Of a stretch of 64,000 bases of DNA, positions 1 to 10,159 are shown in pieces (within the stretch, counting starts at the first letter, position 1; each line of letters begins with the position of its first letter). This stretch comes from Flavivirga eckloniae (GTDB taxonomy: Bacteria > Bacteroidota > Bacteroidia > Flavobacteriales > Flavobacteriaceae). The translations under genes and the position numbers were made by a program. The DNA is taken from assembly GCF_002886045.1 (NCBI RefSeq), contig NZ_CP025791.1, forward strand, positions 2,805,001-2,869,000. The letters are read 5' to 3'. Under the pieces are notes generated by a model. The model was not told where the DNA came from and made no database searches. It saw only the letters and a program-made list of their open reading frames with translations.

Positions 1-491
1 CGCAACGCCCTACCATAGACAAGCACATTATCCAATCTGAAAAACCAATCCTAATTTTAGACTTATCGATTCCGAAAAACGTTGATTCCAATGTTGAAGA
101 ATTAGGCAATGTTACTTTGGTTCATTTAGATCATTTATCTAAAATTACAGATAAAACTTTAGAAGACAGAAAAAAGGATATTCCTCTTGCCGAATCTATT
201 ATAGAAGAAGTAAAAACAGAATTTAACGGTTGGTTAGAAACCAGAAAATTTGCGCCAACTATTAAAGCATTAAAACACAAGCTTAGCGACTTTGCTGCTG
301 CAGAATTGGAAACGCAACGCAAGAAAAACGCCGATTTTAACGAAGCACAAGCAGAGCTAATTAGCAACAATATTATTCAAAAAATAACCAATCACTTTGC
401 GCATCATTTAAAGGATGATGACATCTCCACCGATGAGAGCCTGGAACTTATAAAAAAAGTATTTCAGCTAGAACCAACAACACATGTCTAA
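1..491 (+). CDS. hemA: Glutamyl-tRNA reductase, 3' part (5' end outside window)
   Basis: An open frame enters from the left edge (first full codon at base 3) and ends at the TAA at 489-491. The visible ~163 residues are the end of the NADPH-binding domain (a run LILDLSIPKNVD, then LDHL) and the helical dimerisation domain of glutamyl-tRNA reductase, which makes glutamate-1-semialdehyde in the first committed step of C5 heme synthesis. Catalytic residues lie upstream of the window. The stop overlaps the next start by 8 bases (ATGTCTAA), which implies translational coupling with hemC. Identification rests on the C-terminal domain pattern plus the heme-cluster context. Confidence 0.88.
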   Translation, partial: QRPTIDKHIIQSEKPILILDLSIPKNVDSNVEELGNVTLVHLDHLSKITDKTLEDRKKDIPLAESIIEEVKTEFNGWLETRKFAPTIKALKHKLSDFAAAELETQRKKNADFNEAQAELISNNIIQKITNHFAHHLKDDDISTDESLELIKKVFQLEPTTHV

Positions 492-2061
492 AGTTATTAG
501 AATTGGCACACGCGATAGCGAATTAGCGCTATGGCAAGCTAAAACCGTACAACAACAACTCGAACATTTAGGATATCAGACAAAACTCGTTCCTGTAAAA
601 TCTACCGGCGATTTGGTTTTAGATAAACCATTATACGAACTAGGTATTACCGGTATTTTTACGCGTACACTCGATATTGCCATGTTAAATCATGATATCG
701 ATATTGCCGTACACTCGTTAAAGGATGTTCCAACGGTTTTGCCAAAAGGCATTGTACAAGTAGCCGTTTTAAAACGAGGAAACGTAAACGATACGTTAGT
801 TTTTAAAAAGAATGAAGAGTTTTTAAGCGCCGAAAAAGCCGTAATAGCAACAGGCAGCTTAAGACGAAAAGCACAATGGTTAAACCGATATCCAACCCAT
901 ACCATTGAAGATTTACGTGGCAATGTAAATTCGCGTTTACAAAAACTTCAAGATAACGACCATTGGAATGCTGCTATTTTTGCTGCTGCCGGTATAGGGC
1001 GTATTGGAATAAGACCAGATGAATCTATTAACTTAGATTGGATGATTCCTGCGCCAGCACAAGGTGCCATCATGATTACTGCTCTAGAGGAGGATGAGTT
1101 TATAAAAACCGCCTGTGCTCAACTAAATCATGAGGAAACTGAAATTTGCACCACTATTGAGCGTAAATTTTTAAACCGACTAGAAGGTGGTTGCACTGCA
1201 CCTATTGGGGCTTTAGCCCGCATAAAAAATGAAGAAATACATTTTAAAGGCGTGCTTTTAAGTAAAGATGGTTCTAAAAAAATAGAAGTTACCAAAACCG
1301 AAAAATTAGGTAAACACGAATATATAGCGGGTTTTTGTGCCGACTATATTATCGAACGAGGCGGCAAACGTTTAATGGATGATATTAAACACACAAACCA
1401 CCCAACAAATGTAGTTTCTACTAAGTCCTTAACCGAAGACCAACGTTTATTGTTTCACCAGAAAGTAGCAGCAAAAAGTGATGACTTTATAAAAATAAGT
1501 TTGAATCGTATTCGTCCGCAACTTTTAAGGTCTGAAATTGAAAATGTTATTATTACAAGCAAAAATGCCGTTGAAGCTTTAATAACAAACTATTCGGCTA
1601 CCGAATTACAATTCAAGAATATTTACTGTGTAGGGAGACGAACAAAAAAACTTATTGAAAACAGAATTGGCAAGGTAAAGCATGTTGAAAAAAATGCTAA
1701 GAAGCTGGCAGAGTATTTAGTGGAGTATCTGGAAGGAACCGAAGTCACTTATTTTTGCAGCGATATACGACTAGATGCGCTACCAACCATTTTGGCCGAT
1801 AACAATATAAAAGTTAACGAAATAGAAGCCTACCAAACCAAATTTGACGGTCACAAAATTGAGGAATCTGTAGAAGCCGTAATGTTTTACAGCCCATCTA
1901 CCGTACAAAGTTTTGTAAAAAAGAATAATGCAGAAGTTATTGCCTTTTGTATTGGGGATACCACCGCAAAAGAAGCAAAAAAACACTTTGAAGATGTTAG
2001 AGTGGCAAAAGTGCCAACTGTTGAAAGTGTGATTGAGTTGGTTAATGAGCATTATGTTTAA
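484..2061 (+). CDS. hemC: Hydroxymethylbilane synthase fused to uroporphyrinogen-III synthase
   Basis: The 525-residue product has two parts. Residues 1 to about 305 are HemC (start IRIGTRDSELALWQA; dipyrromethane cofactor cysteine C237 in GGCTAPIG), which polymerises four porphobilinogens. Residues from about 320 to the end match the divergent HemD fold (ITSKNAVEAL, CVGRRTKKL, FYSPSTVQSF), which closes and isomerises the tetrapyrrole ring. A stand-alone HemC is about 300 residues, so the length itself indicates a fusion. The product of one half is the substrate of the other, and hydroxymethylbilane is unstable, so channelling is plausible but inferred. It overlaps hemA by 8 bases. HemD assignment is by fold pattern and order because HemD sequences are poorly conserved. 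Confidence 0.9.
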   Translation: MSKVIRIGTRDSELALWQAKTVQQQLEHLGYQTKLVPVKSTGDLVLDKPLYELGITGIFTRTLDIAMLNHDIDIAVHSLKDVPTVLPKGIVQVAVLKRGNVNDTLVFKKNEEFLSAEKAVIATGSLRRKAQWLNRYPTHTIEDLRGNVNSRLQKLQDNDHWNAAIFAAAGIGRIGIRPDESINLDWMIPAPAQGAIMITALEEDEFIKTACAQLNHEETEICTTIERKFLNRLEGGCTAPIGALARIKNEEIHFKGVLLSKDGSKKIEVTKTEKLGKHEYIAGFCADYIIERGGKRLMDDIKHTNHPTNVVSTKSLTEDQRLLFHQKVAAKSDDFIKISLNRIRPQLLRSEIENVIITSKNAVEALITNYSATELQFKNIYCVGRRTKKLIENRIGKVKHVEKNAKKLAEYLVEYLEGTEVTYFCSDIRLDALPTILADNNIKVNEIEAYQTKFDGHKIEESVEAVMFYSPSTVQSFVKKNNAEVIAFCIGDTTAKEAKKHFEDVRVAKVPTVESVIELVNEHYV

Positions 2062-2237: not shown

Positions 2238-3269
2238 ATGAGTATAAAGAACGATTTATTTTTAAGAGCATTAAAAGGAGAAACCGTTGATCGTCCACCA
2301 GTTTGGATGATGCGTCAAGCAGGGCGTTATCTTCCAGAATTTATCGCTATTCGCGAGAAATACGATTTCTTTACCCGTTGTAGAACTCCAGAATTAGCCA
2401 GTGAAATTACCGTGCAACCTATTCGTCGTTATGGTATGGATGCCGCTATTTTGTTCAGTGATATTTTGGTCATCCCGCAGGCTATGAATATTGAGGTGCA
2501 AATGAAACCTAATTTTGGACCATATTTACCAAATCCTGTACGCACTCAAAAAGATGTTGATCATGTTGTCGTTCCAGATGTAACAGTAGAGCTCGACTAT
2601 GTATACCAAGCTATTAAAGCCACTAAAAAATTACTAAATGACGAGATTCCTTTAATTGGATTTGCCGGTTCGCCATGGACTATTTTATGCTATTGTGTAC
2701 AAGGCCAAGGAAGTAAAACGTTCGATAAAGCCAAAGAATTTTGTTTTACAAACCCCATTGCTGCGCACCAATTACTTCAAAAAATAACCGATACAACCAT
2801 AGCTTACCTAAAAGAAAAAGTAAAAGCTGGTGTTAATGCCGTACAAGTGTTCGATTCTTGGGGAGGCATGTTATCTCCAGTAGATTACCAAGAGTTCTCA
2901 TGGCAATATATCAATCAAATTATTGAAGCTTTAAAAGATGATGCTCCAGTAATTGCATTTGGTAAAGGCTGTTGGTTTGCCCTTGGCGATATGGCAAAAA
3001 GTAACGCCTCTGCGTTAGGTGTAGACTGGACGTGTTCACCAAGAAATGCACGTTATTTAACAGGCGGCAACATTACACTTCAAGGTAATTTCGATCCATC
3101 TCGCTTATTGTCGCCACCTTCTGAAATAAAGAAAATGGTACACCAAATGATTAACGAATTTGGCAAAGACAAATACATCGTAAACCTGGGCCATGGTATT
3201 TTACCTAATATTCCGTTAGATCATGCCAAGGCATTTATTGATGCTGTAAAAGAATATAGCCCTTCTTAA
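2238..3269 (+). CDS. hemE: Uroporphyrinogen decarboxylase
   Basis: The 343-residue protein has the full UroD family length. The N-terminal signature [17 protein letters not shown] (from about residue 20) carries the substrate-binding arginines, and [10 protein letters not shown] and [11 protein letters not shown] lie at the expected spacing. It decarboxylates the four acetate side chains of uroporphyrinogen III to coproporphyrinogen III in the cytoplasm, supplying the substrate of HemF encoded downstream. It follows hemC by 176 bases filled with repeat-like sequence. The start at 2238 gives [15 protein letters not shown], typical of the family. Confidence 0.96.
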
Positions 3270-3434: not shown

Positions 3435-4190
3435 ATGATTAAAAACATAATATTAGGAATCAAGGCATATTTCGGAGCGTTTAACTTAATTTCTAAACTA
3501 AATCTCTGGAAATACTTCGCCATTCCAATGCTTATTAGCTTTATAACAGCTATCATTATTTTTACAACAGCTTACGGACTGTCTGATAATCTTGGAGCAT
3601 TTATTTCAAAAATCTGGATTTGGGAATGGGGAAAAGAAACCTTTACAACAATAAGTTCCTTTATTGGGGGGCTTTTCATTATCGTTATCGGATTAATCCT
3701 TTTCAAACACATCATTATGGCATTATCGGCGCCATTTATGAGTCCAGTATCCGAAAAAATAGAAAATCATTTAACAGGAAATGTTCAATTCACGCATAGA
3801 AATACAACGTTTTTACAACAGCTATGGCGTGGGATACGAATTAACGGAAGAAACTTACTCATGGAGTTGGTAATAACCGTTCCATTGTTACTATTAAAAT
3901 TTATTCCTGTTGTAAATATATTTTCGGCTATACTGCTCTTTGCTGTCCAAGCATACTACGCTGGTTTCGGTAATTTAGATTACACTCTGGAACGTCATTT
4001 TAAATACCAAGAAAGCACTGCCTTTGTTAGAAAAAATCGTGGTTTAGCTATTGGAAATGGTGTTATTTTTCTCTTGTTCCTATTAATTCCCATTGTTGGT
4101 GTTATACTAGTATTACCTTTATCTGTAACAGCTGCTACCACAAGAACCGTAGAAGTTTTACAACTAAAAAACAGTCCTAAAAATGCTTAG
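3435..4190 (+). CDS. EI24/CysZ-like integral membrane protein
   Basis: The 251-residue protein has about four to six hydrophobic spans (near residues 28-50, 75-100, 140-175 and 205-232) and the motif AYYAGFGNLDYTLER typical of the EI24 domain family, which includes the CysZ sulfate permease. No sulfate-assimilation genes are nearby, so transport of sulfate is not supported; the function is best left as membrane protein. It overlaps the following acetyltransferase by 8 bases, so the two are probably co-translated. It recurs in heme clusters of flavobacteria as far as I recall. Confidence 0.75.
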   Translation: MIKNIILGIKAYFGAFNLISKLNLWKYFAIPMLISFITAIIIFTTAYGLSDNLGAFISKIWIWEWGKETFTTISSFIGGLFIIVIGLILFKHIIMALSAPFMSPVSEKIENHLTGNVQFTHRNTTFLQQLWRGIRINGRNLLMELVITVPLLLLKFIPVVNIFSAILLFAVQAYYAGFGNLDYTLERHFKYQESTAFVRKNRGLAIGNGVIFLLFLLIPIVGVILVLPLSVTAATTRTVEVLQLKNSPKNA

Positions 4191-4722
4191 CTTTAATGGT
4201 TACAATATAGAACCCATTCAATTAAAAGACGCTTGGAACTTATGCGATTTTATTGTTGCAAACGAAGATCGGTTAAAACGTTATTTTCCTAAAACGCTTA
4301 AGCAAAATTTAACCCCAGACTTATCTAAATATTTTGTAGAAAAAAAAGTCAAGCAATTTGGCTTAAAAGAAGAACTCTTATTTACTATTAAAGAAAATGA
4401 GCCAAATACATTAGTTGGTTTAGTTTATTTAAAAGAACTTGATTGGAATAAAAAACAAGGTGAGTTTGCCTATTGTATTGGCTATCCTTTTGAAGAAAAA
4501 GGAATTATGACCAAAACCATTGGCAAATTATCAGAATATGCTTTTGCTCAACTAGGTCTGGAAACACTTCAAATTATTGTTCATAAAGACAACATAGCTA
4601 GTGTAAAAGTTGCAGAAAAATGCAACTTTATCTGGAAAAGGACACTGAACAATGAGTATACACCACCTGGAGAAACTCCTTTAAATATGGAGTTATATGA
4701 ATTATATCGTGAAATAGAATAA
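4183..4722 (+). CDS. GNAT family N-acetyltransferase (RimJ/RimL-like)
   Basis: The 179-residue protein has the GNAT core: N-terminal strand-helix segment, central strands LVGLVYLKELDW and GEFAYCIGYPFEEKGIMTKT (acetyl-CoA pyrophosphate loop region), and the C-terminal IIVHKDNIASVKVAEKCNF motif that marks the RimJ/RimL subgroup. Members acetylate protein N-termini or small amines with acetyl-CoA; the substrate here cannot be read from sequence. It overlaps the EI24 gene by 8 bases. The transposon-derived palindrome begins 28 bases past its stop. Confidence 0.87.
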   Translation: MLSFNGYNIEPIQLKDAWNLCDFIVANEDRLKRYFPKTLKQNLTPDLSKYFVEKKVKQFGLKEELLFTIKENEPNTLVGLVYLKELDWNKKQGEFAYCIGYPFEEKGIMTKTIGKLSEYAFAQLGLETLQIIVHKDNIASVKVAEKCNFIWKRTLNNEYTPPGETPLNMELYELYREIE

Positions 4723-4750: not shown

Positions 4751-4783
4751 AGACCTGTCAGGTTTTAGAAACCTGACAGGTCT
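4751..4783. repeat. REP palindrome, left copy flanking the RAYT
   Basis: A perfect palindrome with 15-base arms AGACCTGTCAGGTTT and AAACCTGACAGGTCT separated by TAG. An identical-armed copy lies at 5323-5355, on the other side of the transposase domain. It sits 18 bases before the transposase start codon. Palindromes of this kind are the DNA-hairpin substrates of RAYT (Y1/HUH) transposases. Confidence 0.93.
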
Positions 4784-4801
4784 CTAAGCAAAACTTAACA
4801 A

Positions 4802-6289
4802 ATGAGGCAAGAAAAAATAGAAAAAGACCATTATTACCATATCTTTAATAGAGGAATTAATAGTGATGTTATTTTTCAAACAGAAGATAATAAGTCTTAT
4901 TTCCTTAAGTTAGTTGAGAAACACTTAATGGGTAAAGTGGATATTCTTGCTTATTGTTTGATGGATAATCATTTTCATTTTGCCATTAAAATTGTTAAAG
5001 AAGAATCTATTGCTACTCAGGCTTTTTCTAATCTTTTTAATGCCTACGCTAAAGCATATAATAAACAACAAAACAGAACAGGAACTCTTTTTGAAAGACC
5101 TTATAAAAGAATTCGGATTCAAGATGAAGACTATTTAAAAAAGCTTATTCTTTATATTCATAAAAACCCAGAGAATCATAATGTGATTAACAACTTTGAA
5201 AATTATGAATTCTCATCATATAAAAACTACCTTGATGATAGCAATAGTATTATCGTTACAAATAAATCATACATTATAAATCTTTTTAATGATTTGGAAA
5301 ATTTTAAATATACACATAGCTCAGACCTGTCAGGTTTCGAAAACCTGACAGGTCTTAATAACGACACGACAAGTAATTCAACTACTATAAAGTCCAAATT
5401 CTACCAATACATACAAGATTTACAAAATACCATCACGTCTAAATTAGAAGCTATTGATAGCAAAGCAACGTTCCAAGAAGACATCTGGAAACGACCTGAA
5501 GGCGGCGGCGGACGTACCAGAGTTATCGAAAACGGAAATGTTTTTGAAAAAGGAGGTGTAAATATCTCTGGCGTTCATGGTAAACTTCCAGAATCGATGC
5601 AAGCGTATTTTAAGGTCGGTGATGTCGACTTTTTTGCTTGTGGATTGAGTTTGGTCTTACACCCTAAAAACCCAATGGTTCCAACAGTACATGCCAACTG
5701 GCGTTATTTCGAAATGTATGATAAACAGGGGGAAATTATTGATAGTTGGTTTGGTGGCGGACAAGACCTAACGCCTTATTATTTGTTTGAAGAAGATGCC
5801 ATACATTTTCATCAAATCTGTAAAACCGCTTGTGATAACCACAACCCAGAATTTTACCCAAAATATAAAGCACGTTGCGACGAATATTTTTATAATGCAC
5901 ACCGTAACGAGGGCAGGGGGATTGGTGGTTTGTTTTTCGATTATTGTAAAACTTCAGAAACTATGACCATGGAAAGCTGGTATGACTTTGTAACCGAAGT
6001 TGGAGATAGTTTTTTAGAAGCTTACACACCAATAGTTGAAAAACGCAAAGATTTATCATACACAGAAGCCCAACGCAATTGGCAAGAAATTCGTCGCGGA
6101 CGCTACGTTGAATTTAATTTAGTACATGATAAAGGCACCCTTTTTGGATTAAAAACAAATGGACGTATAGAAAGTATTTTAATGAGCCTACCCCCTCATG
6201 TACAATGGGTTTACGACCATCAACCTGAAACTGGAAGTGAAGAAGAAAAATTAATAGAGGTTTTAAAAACACCCAAAAATTGGATTTAA
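4802..6289 (+). CDS. hemF: RAYT (Y1 transposase) fused in frame to coproporphyrinogen-III oxidase
   Basis: One uninterrupted 495-codon frame encodes two unrelated proteins. Residues 1 to about 174 are a REP-associated tyrosine transposase: YHIFNRG near the start, the HUH-type pair in MDNHFHFAI, and the tyrosine-bearing helix AYAKAYNKQQNRTGTLFERPYK. Residues about 196-495 are a complete oxygen-dependent HemF (family length about 300): RPEGGGGRTRV, VHANWRYFEM, RGIGGLFFDY, GRYVEFNLVHDKGT. HemF converts coproporphyrinogen III to protoporphyrinogen IX. The join runs through a REP palindrome (5323-5355) that is translated as DLSGFENLTGL. Comparison with ordinary HemF starts suggests the native initiator was at codon 196 (5387-5389), which now reads ATA; no ATG, GTG or TTG occurs in frame between it and the conserved core. 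Either a chimeric protein is made, or HemF starts at a non-canonical codon. Confidence 0.93.
   Translation: MRQEKIEKDHYYHIFNRGINSDVIFQTEDNKSYFLKLVEKHLMGKVDILAYCLMDNHFHFAIKIVKEESIATQAFSNLFNAYAKAYNKQQNRTGTLFERPYKRIRIQDEDYLKKLILYIHKNPENHNVINNFENYEFSSYKNYLDDSNSIIVTNKSYIINLFNDLENFKYTHSSDLSGFENLTGLNNDTTSNSTTIKSKFYQYIQDLQNTITSKLEAIDSKATFQEDIWKRPEGGGGRTRVIENGNVFEKGGVNISGVHGKLPESMQAYFKVGDVDFFACGLSLVLHPKNPMVPTVHANWRYFEMYDKQGEIIDSWFGGGQDLTPYYLFEEDAIHFHQICKTACDNHNPEFYPKYKARCDEYFYNAHRNEGRGIGGLFFDYCKTSETMTMESWYDFVTEVGDSFLEAYTPIVEKRKDLSYTEAQRNWQEIRRGRYVEFNLVHDKGTLFGLKTNGRIESILMSLPPHVQWVYDHQPETGSEEEKLIEVLKTPKNWI
5323..5355. repeat. REP palindrome, right copy, inside the fused coding frame
   Basis: Arms AGACCTGTCAGGTTT and AAACCTGACAGGTCT are identical to the copy at 4751-4783; the spacer is CGA instead of TAG. 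It is translated in frame within the RAYT-HemF chimera. The spacer change matters little for this frame but the copy contains no stop in the frame used. In mRNA it would form a very stable 15-bp hairpin 31 bases before the presumed original hemF start. Confidence 0.93.
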
Positions 6290-9093: not shown

Positions 9094-9114
9094 TATAAAC
9101 TAGGTTTTAATGAT

Positions 9115-9122
9115 TAACTTTG
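9115..9122 (+). promoter_or_regulatory. Flavobacterial -7 box for hemB
   Basis: TAACTTTG matches the Bacteroidota -7 consensus TAnnTTTG. A transcript starting about 5 bases downstream would exclude the ATG at 9110 and supports the hemB start at 9167. A -33 TTG is not evident. The box lies in the 73-base gap shared with the divergent helicase gene. Confidence 0.55.
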
Positions 9123-9166
9123 CAATCGATAAAAATAACAATTATCAAGAATTTATAGATATAAAT

Positions 9167-10159
9167 ATGTATCCATTAAGAAGAAATAGAAGACTTAGAG
9201 CTGGTGAAGCAATTCGCTCTATAGTTCGAGAAACCATTATTACTCCAAATGATTTTTTAGTGCCTTTATTTGTTGTAGAGGGCAAAGGTATTAAAGATGA
9301 GATTCCATCTATGCCTAACTACTTTCGTTACAGTTTGGATTTGCTTGAAGGCGAAGTAAAAGAGTTATGGAAATTGGGGTTAAAATCGGTGTTATTGTTT
9401 GTAAAAGTTCCAGACAACCTAAAAGACAATAAGGGTACAGAAGCCTTAAACCCAAATGGGCTCATGCAACGTGCTATTAAAACTGTAAAAAACGCCTGCC
9501 CTGATATGTTGGTTATGACTGATGTTGCATTAGATCCTTACTCGGCTTATGGTCATGATGGCATTGTTGAAAACGGACAGATTTTAAACGATGAAACTGC
9601 TGAAGTTTTAAGTGAAATGAGTATATCTCATGCTAAAGCCGGTGCTAATTTTGTAGCGCCAAGTGACATGATGGATGGTCGCATTCTATCTATTCGAGAA
9701 GCATTAGAAGATGAAGGCTTTATCAATACTGGTATTATGAGCTATTCGGCAAAATACGCTTCGGCATTTTACGGTCCATTTCGTGATGCATTAGATTCTG
9801 CACCTGTAGACCAAATGGATATTCCAAAAGACAAAAAAACCTATCAAATGGATTATGCTAATCGTTTTGAAGCTATTAGGGAAACCGAAATGGACATAGA
9901 TGAAGGTGCAGATATTGTTATGGTGAAGCCCGGTTTATGTTATTTAGATATTGTACGAGAAATTAAAAATGAGGTTGATGTTCCTGTGGCGGTGTATCAA
10001 GTTTCTGGCGAATATGCCATGCTTAAAGCTGCTGCCGAAAAAGGTTGGCTAGAACACGATGCTGTTATGATGGAACAAATTACCGCTATTAAACGTGCTG
10101 GAGGAGATATTATAGCTAGTTACTTTGCCAAAGATGTTGTGAGGCTATTGAATTCTTAA
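9167..10159 (+). CDS. hemB: Porphobilinogen synthase (delta-aminolevulinic acid dehydratase)
   Basis: From 9167 the product begins MYPLRRNRRLRAGEAIRS, the usual family N-terminus, and is 330 residues; the ATG at 9110 lies upstream of the -7 box and adds 19 unconserved residues. Schiff-base lysines are K196 (SAKYASAFYGPF) and K254 (MVKPGLCY). The metal-site segment DVALDPYSAYGHDG has aspartates and alanine where zinc-type enzymes have three cysteines, so this is the magnesium-type, zinc-independent form. The enzyme condenses two aminolevulinates into porphobilinogen, the substrate of HemC. It has its own promoter, separated from the rest of the heme cluster by the antisense helicase. Confidence 0.96.
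   Translation: MYPLRRNRRLRAGEAIRSIVRETIITPNDFLVPLFVVEGKGIKDEIPSMPNYFRYSLDLLEGEVKELWKLGLKSVLLFVKVPDNLKDNKGTEALNPNGLMQRAIKTVKNACPDMLVMTDVALDPYSAYGHDGIVENGQILNDETAEVLSEMSISHAKAGANFVAPSDMMDGRILSIREALEDEGFINTGIMSYSAKYASAFYGPFRDALDSAPVDQMDIPKDKKTYQMDYANRFEAIRETEMDIDEGADIVMVKPGLCYLDIVREIKNEVDVPVAVYQVSGEYAMLKAAAEKGWLEHDAVMMEQITAIKRAGGDIIASYFAKDVVRLLNS

Follow-up and report, generated by a model that had tools for sequence, protein, structure and literature searches.

The window analysed here, i.e., a stretch of 64,000 nucleotides from contig NZ_CP025791.1 of Flavivirga eckloniae (genome G000), contains a gene in which a REP-associated Y1 transposase (RAYT) is joined in frame to HemF (Table 1). The gene is one open frame of 495 codons plus a stop codon with zero internal stops, as judged from the list of open reading frames and the translation. 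A sequence-only reading of this DNA had proposed such a frame, and the proposal was borne out: no stop separates the halves, and both pass their Pfam cut-offs, i.e., 27.5 bits over residues 9-122 for Y1_Tnp (cut-off 23) and 448.8 bits over residues 200-494 for Coprogen_oxidas (cut-off 31.8). Furthermore, the NCBIfam model NF003727 (HemF) scored 422.9 bits over residues 198-494 against a cut-off of 297, indicating a full-length oxygen-dependent coproporphyrinogen oxidase domain. The same reading had described REP-like palindromes of 33 bp with identical arms accompanying the RAYT, the translation of one of them as DLSGFENLTGL (residues 175-185) and an ATA triplet at codon 196, all of which we found in place. 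The genome consists of a single 5.67-Mb contig and encodes one HemF. The neighbouring genes are presumably a hemC-hemD-like gene, hemE, an EI24-like and a GNAT-like gene and hemB.

Table 1 Features of the RAYT-HemF locus, numbered from the first nucleotide of the window.
Feature	Position	Strand	Basis
hemC-hemD-like fused gene	484..2061	+	ORF list; order same in relatives by tblastn
hemE (uroporphyrinogen decarboxylase)	2238..3269	+	ORF list; order conserved in relatives
EI24-like membrane protein	3435..4190	+	ORF list; frequent neighbour in relatives
GNAT-like acetyltransferase	4183..4722	+	ORF list; relatives compared
Left REP-like palindrome, 33 bp	4751..4783	.	Sequence; 22 genome copies at ≤3 mismatches
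RAYT-HemF fusion gene, 495 aa	4802..6289	+	Pfam; same fusion in 21 genomes of the whole-genome set, and in 14 of the 80 named records
RAYT domain, HUH H57/H59 and Y118 (YIHKNP)	4802..5320	+	Pfam Y1_Tnp, alignment, Foldseek 4er8
Right palindrome, in-frame DLSGFENLTGL	5323..5355	.	Sequence, translation
Linker encoded by palindrome	5324..5386	+	Predicted disordered, residues 175-194 pLDDT <50
ATA, site of start codon in unfused HemF relatives	5387..5389	+	Sequence, relatives compared
HemF domain, complete	5390..6289	+	Pfam 200-494; NCBIfam NF003727
hemB	9110..10159	+	ORF list; frequent neighbour in relatives

An AlphaFold2 model computed from a shallow alignment of 19 fusions reached a mean pLDDT of 69.7. 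The RAYT domain was predicted mostly with confidence (pLDDT 71-92 over residues 1-170, in blocks of ten), and the HemF part with mixed confidence that became poor toward its end. A Foldseek search with this model ranked HemF structures first and also retrieved 4er8_A (E = 1.3e-5, TMt 0.69), i.e., the E. coli TnpAREP (RAYT) bound to a REP hairpin. In a profile alignment of the fusion RAYT with 4er8 (E = 0.0075), H57/H59, Y118 and N122 coincide with the HUH motif, Tyr115 and Asn119 of 4er8, its residues being counted on the alignment. Y115 is the catalytic tyrosine of TnpAREP according to the portion of PMC8266576 consulted, and both Y115 and N119 are named in the excerpts of PMC6006769 and PMC8266576. 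None of H57, H59, Y118 and N122 varies across an alignment of 18 fusions, to which G144 does not belong. Across all 32 distinct fusions, the HUH motif is retained in 31; the exception is G144, in which it reads NQFH and one histidine is gone, so that RAYT activity appears dispensable in some fusions. L048 carries YIHTNS and thus lacks the proline of YxxxNP. As the Y1_Tnp cut-off is passed and that of the NCBIfam RAYT model NF047646 is not (45.2 bits versus 80), we class this half as a RAYT-like Y1 transposase with REPs. RAYTs of this clade occur as a single copy in the window genome. dN/dS is low in both halves, the RAYT half having a median of 0.159 and the HemF half one of 0.055 over 34 pairs (pS <0.65 in both halves) that are non-independent and include a few duplicate records. 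The RAYT half presumably still handles REPs. In four relatives (L041, L046, L048 and L147) the HemF domain contains, at one and the same place, a different in-frame insert following YFEMY/YFEIY (PSTPLRAGEPRE, EKDGSSPSGRSGG, ASAHFDSAQQPPLRVNEPRD and PDKVSGEASTLGARG, respectively), apparently another flavobacterial repeat that is translated as protein.

The palindrome occurs 22 times in the window genome at ≤3 mismatches, both flanking copies counted, and the reversed control gave 0. Eight of these 22 copies were checked for a surrounding open reading frame, and none had one longer than 41 aa. The three other places with Y1 transposases in G000 are not supported as owners of the palindrome: aligned over part of their length, their proteins are just 22-34% alike, and no copy lies within about 1.5 kb of any of them. 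The main palindrome type is GACCTGTCAGG in G000 and GACCTGCCAGG in its congener G004, each matching the palindrome upstream of the respective RAYT; the palindromes at the HemF junction of G004 belong to yet another type. All 21 fused genomes hold copies (1 to 29, median 9), as do 8 of 9 genomes with an unfused RAYT in the heme cluster. Among genomes without a heme-cluster RAYT, copies were found in 6 of 16 and were absent from 10, and in seven same-genus pairs the RAYT-free partner had zero. Three of the six fusion-free congeners of the window genome hold 4, 9 and 10 copies, and G300 holds 3. In the pairs G142/G330 and G084/G294, the partners G330 (7 copies) and G294 (4 copies) exceed their fused counterparts; both lack a heme-cluster RAYT and carry another RAYT elsewhere in the genome. 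Five of the 21 fused genomes show only 1-2 copies by the strict pattern, probably the flanking palindromes themselves. Copy counts are thus only suggestive of RAYT activity. In G222 (C11:234806-236247, L215), at least seven palindromes cluster around a RAYT beside hemF, with four steps of ~160 bp.

Within the genus of the window genome, hemF is present in 12 of 12 genomes and the in-frame fusion in six (G000, G002, G003, G004, G007 and G009). Among 397 sampled Flavobacteriaceae, of which 342 gave any match, at least 16 carry the fusion, i.e., 15 among the matches listed plus G144; surroundings were taken for most of the 53 RAYT matches of the family, the weaker ones being left out. Of 549 named records that contain a related RAYT, the best 80 were covered, and 14 of these carry the fusion as well; they belong to Algibacter, Hanstruepera, Winogradskyella, Polaribacter, Aestuariivivens, Gelidibacter, Aequorivita and unnamed taxa. 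Three of these 14 give proteins identical to those of genomes in the whole-genome set, which identifies the family sampled there as Flavobacteriaceae, and removal of identical proteins left the 32 distinct fusions. No fusion outside the family was seen at E = 1e-203 or better, a cut-off that would miss divergent fusions, in 395 genomes drawn from the order and 395 from the phylum; both draws overlap the family and yielded three fusions each, all from the family. Because the fusion is read in 21 genomes, five of them single contigs (G000, G355, G178, G135 and G167), and in 14 of 80 named records, it is neither a chance event nor a sequencing error, and the single contigs rule out an assembly error. 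The earlier reading had described the event in this one genome and suggested inspecting hemF, RAYT and the hemF upstream region in relatives; this comparison excludes a recent private insertion and instead reveals a recurrent state of one clade of heme-cluster RAYTs. Nor was fusion seen as a general habit of RAYTs: among 71 loci classed as free, the sole frame longer than 260 codons (L074) runs off its contig.

The earlier reading had also made an aerobic heme step dependent on transposon-derived translation. We found the oxygen-independent HemN above its curated cut-off in 20 of 21 fused genomes, so a general dependence of the cell on the fusion for heme is unsupported; dependence on the fused HemF would be mainly aerobic, and HemF may be conditionally needed. 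The further suggestions of that reading, namely that the DNA-binding half might place the enzyme near REP sites or let heme state act back on REPs, are speculative.

Comparison of the hemF border among relatives revealed several coexisting states. Where no RAYT is present (state 0), the upstream open reading frame ends ≤10 nt from the hemF start in 27 of 32 empty sites and overlaps it in four; in the genus member G001, the stop of the GNAT-like gene directly adjoins the hemF ATG. At such sites hemF is probably translated by coupling to the preceding gene, and the closeness of its start to an upstream stop could account for insertions there resulting in coupling or fusion. At the RAYT-free loci L145, L149 and L155, hemF starts with TTG instead of ATG, and in G303 (L162) the N terminus of HemF is linker-like, MEKTFNTTIKDKFF; these odd starts are possibly scars of a lost fusion. 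In state 1 (L070 from Arenibacter, L078, L082 and L215), a RAYT with its own stop is followed by palindromes and then by hemF with an ATG. In state 2, the RAYT frame crosses the palindrome sequence and ends 8 bp short of the hemF ATG (L213), or the RAYT stop overlaps the hemF start as ATGA (L214). The remaining states are fused, with a start codon either retained at HemF position 1 (state 3, 13 of 32) or lost (state 4, 19 of 32), the latter including the window. Reading the states 0-4 as a time series would be our interpretation. Since L213 and L214 are nested among fused relatives in the RAYT tree, they may be reversals and not forerunners.

In the RAYT tree, 31 fused and 15 unfused heme-cluster RAYTs fall into one group with moderate support (83/72; midpoint root), which also includes L074, a frame truncated by the end of its contig. 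The tree covers 31 of 32 distinct fusions (the motif did not find L049), 15 of 16 distinct unfused heme-cluster loci and 26 of the 71 free loci, those below 44% identity or without the motif being left out. The fused label changes five times on it, and one main branch of nine rows is entirely unfused. Wherever the surroundings were read, RAYTs of this clade were confined to the heme cluster and preceded hemF on the same strand. The fused ones sit at hemF itself; some of the unfused ones are as far as 2.6 kb from it, either between hemD and hemE or past hemE. On the HemF tree, which excludes 12 loci without a found motif and six duplicates, the fused label requires 23 changes compared to a shuffled mean of 23.1; sister species such as L065 (fused) and G054 (RAYT-free) thus differ in their RAYT state. 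Within the genus of the window genome, the RAYTs of G000, G009 and G007 differ by a pS of 0.31-0.34, against 0.46-0.67 for EI24, GNAT, HemF and hemB, and pairs with G004 show the opposite, with a RAYT pS of 0.77-0.84. Several RAYT lineages thus occupy the same border within one genus, and one set looks younger than the genes around it. Gain or loss at the same border in sister species, together with the younger RAYT in this trio, points to a cassette that was repeatedly gained and/or lost and to horizontal spread. Furthermore, the fusions L067 and L072 read the palindrome as RPARF..KPARS and L045 reads it as RPAR, instead of DLxGF..NLxGL. Judging from these different frames, at least two fusions look independent.

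How the cassette reaches this border bears on a first alternative, namely that the RAYT inserts site-specifically by transposition with the hemF 5' end as its target. The recurrence of the same border across many genera would agree with this, as would the pair L065 and G054, which represents a filled and an empty site with contiguous flanks and 691 bp separating the GNAT stop from the hemF ATG, i.e., a clean insertion in L065. In G002, moreover, a stretch resembling the hemF 5' end lies on the far (left) side of the RAYT, and in G003 (L182) a palindrome together with a decayed hemF 5' end precedes the present fusion, which hints at an earlier round of fusion or replacement. Such relics could agree with targeting, but they fit recombination of flanking DNA better, as they suggest that the incoming DNA carried its own hemF start region. 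As a donor hemF 5' end is implied, we provisionally prefer recombination over transposition. The positions of other RAYTs of this clade, between hemD and hemE or farther from hemF, also argue against such targeting, and the part of PMC8266576 covered here describes tnpAREP genes as showing no evidence of mobility. Overall, we consider site-specific transposition unlikely.

A second alternative holds that a single ancient fusion was inherited vertically and that many precise RAYT losses restored the hemF start. The grouping of the heme-cluster RAYTs into one clade would be expected under it, and the TTG starts and the linker-like N terminus at the RAYT-free loci could be its scars. The roughly 23 label changes on the HemF tree weigh against it, as do a trio whose RAYT is younger than the adjacent genes, the presence of other RAYT lineages in that genus, the two reading frames of the palindrome and the wholly unfused main branch of the RAYT clade. 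Moreover, the 800 bp upstream of hemF contained no REP half-site in any of eight empty loci checked. This history seems improbable to us.

The codons at the HemF border provide the evidence on a third alternative, in which internal initiation, either at AUA/AUC or at a leaky TTG within the RAYT, still yields a separate HemF and the continuous frame is incidental. HemF position 1 is ATG in 11 of the 32 distinct fusions, GTG in one and TTG in one, and holds no start codon in 19, where it is ATC (10), ATA (4), ACC (2), TTT, GTC or CTC (one each). Canonical codons in 13 of 32 speak for internal initiation, as does a TTG that precedes the EGGGG motif of HemF by 66 to 73 codons in several fusions. 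The window is among them: no ATG, GTG or TTG occurs between 25 codons upstream of codon 196 and 69 codons downstream of it, and the in-frame TTG is codon 165, inside the RAYT. The claim of the earlier reading that no in-frame start precedes the HemF core therefore holds downstream of codon 165 and fails at that codon. With some ATG, GTG or TTG at or near HemF position 1 in 17 of 32 fusions, internal starts are possible in those, and the 11 that keep ATG could make a separate HemF as well. The other 15, L095 included, lack these codons from about -25 to +20 codons around the HemF start. Against a separate HemF stand the loss of the start codon in 19 fusions, the absence of ATG, GTG and TTG from the 75 codons before EGGGG in L039, L040, L047, L080 and L095, and a frame that stays open across 32 distinct proteins. 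AUC and ACC are inefficient start codons, and they occupy position 1 in 10 and 2 fusions, respectively. We therefore give incidental fusion with internal initiation little credence. The coexistence of fusions with and without a HemF initiator fits the earlier suggestion that the native initiator was lost after insertion.

Taken together, we consider it quite likely that a REP-RAYT-REP cassette took over the translation of hemF, an enzyme gene that had been coupled to its upstream neighbour. According to this model, the cassette of the heme-cluster RAYT clade sits at the 5' border of hemF, which in Flavobacteriaceae without it mostly starts a few bases from an upstream stop and presumably relies on coupling for its translation. 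Where the cassette intervenes, hemF would be translated from the RAYT, either as a neighbour behind the palindromes or with an overlapping or abutting RAYT stop. Once the RAYT stop was gone, a single polypeptide would result in which the palindrome is read as protein and serves as linker. The hemF ATG would then be dispensable, in line with its absence from most fusions, the window included. HemF synthesis would hang on the RAYT start codon, and loss of the RAYT would be costly where this is the sole usable start. The sequences themselves show the frame, the coexistence of the states, the loss of start codons, the low dN/dS of both halves and the patchy distribution over one and the same site; the fusion polypeptide would be the active HemF, and the fusion may lock the transposase in place. 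The wider notion that the cassette spreads between species into the border of the heme cluster, takes hemF hostage and so makes its own loss costly is more tentative, and we rate its chances at slightly below even.

These loci document, in naturally occurring states, how a RAYT can end up physically inseparable from an enzyme gene, apparently on several occasions, and they bear on the question of why RAYTs persist for so long as single-copy genes. RAYTs are described as single-copy and vertically inherited in the passages of PMC8049555 covered, and the same passages together with those of PMC8266576 mention vertical inheritance and host benefit. If true, hostage-taking would be a mechanism of persistence without benefit from REPs, with intermediates in living species. 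The loci also indicate that palindromic repeats can serve as protein linkers, and they outline how neighbouring genes that are probably coupled turn into a fusion. Among the matches listed in the open PubMed Central literature, as far as their text was covered, no RAYT-HemF fusion is reported. A survey of TnpAREP proteins set aside a few unexpectedly long ones as gene fusions or annotation errors (PMC6006769, in part).

The RAYT half resembles RAYT/TnpAREP proteins of the IS200-like HUH Y1 family in its HUH and Y-x-x-x-N-P motifs, dispersed flanking palindromes, single copy and 4er8 fold, but differs from them in being fused in frame to a metabolic enzyme with the palindrome as coding sequence. 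In contrast to the vertical inheritance of RAYTs described in the covered part of PMC8049555, its distribution is patchy and shows signs of horizontal spread. REP insertions within the transposase gene are known from subclass 2.4 tnpAREP genes, Bacteroidetes included (PMC6006769, sections covered); here, REP sequence likewise lies within the transposase gene, but it serves to link the transposase with the host gene that follows. The HemF half is like other HemF proteins in its complete domain, its score above the curated cut-off and its match by fold to solved HemF relatives, whereas its own start codon is lost and about 195 residues of RAYT and linker precede it. Palindromic repeats read in frame within genes are also known from Rickettsia, as the Rickettsia palindromic elements. 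The palindrome described here is similarly translated within a gene, but unlike those elements it connects two whole genes.
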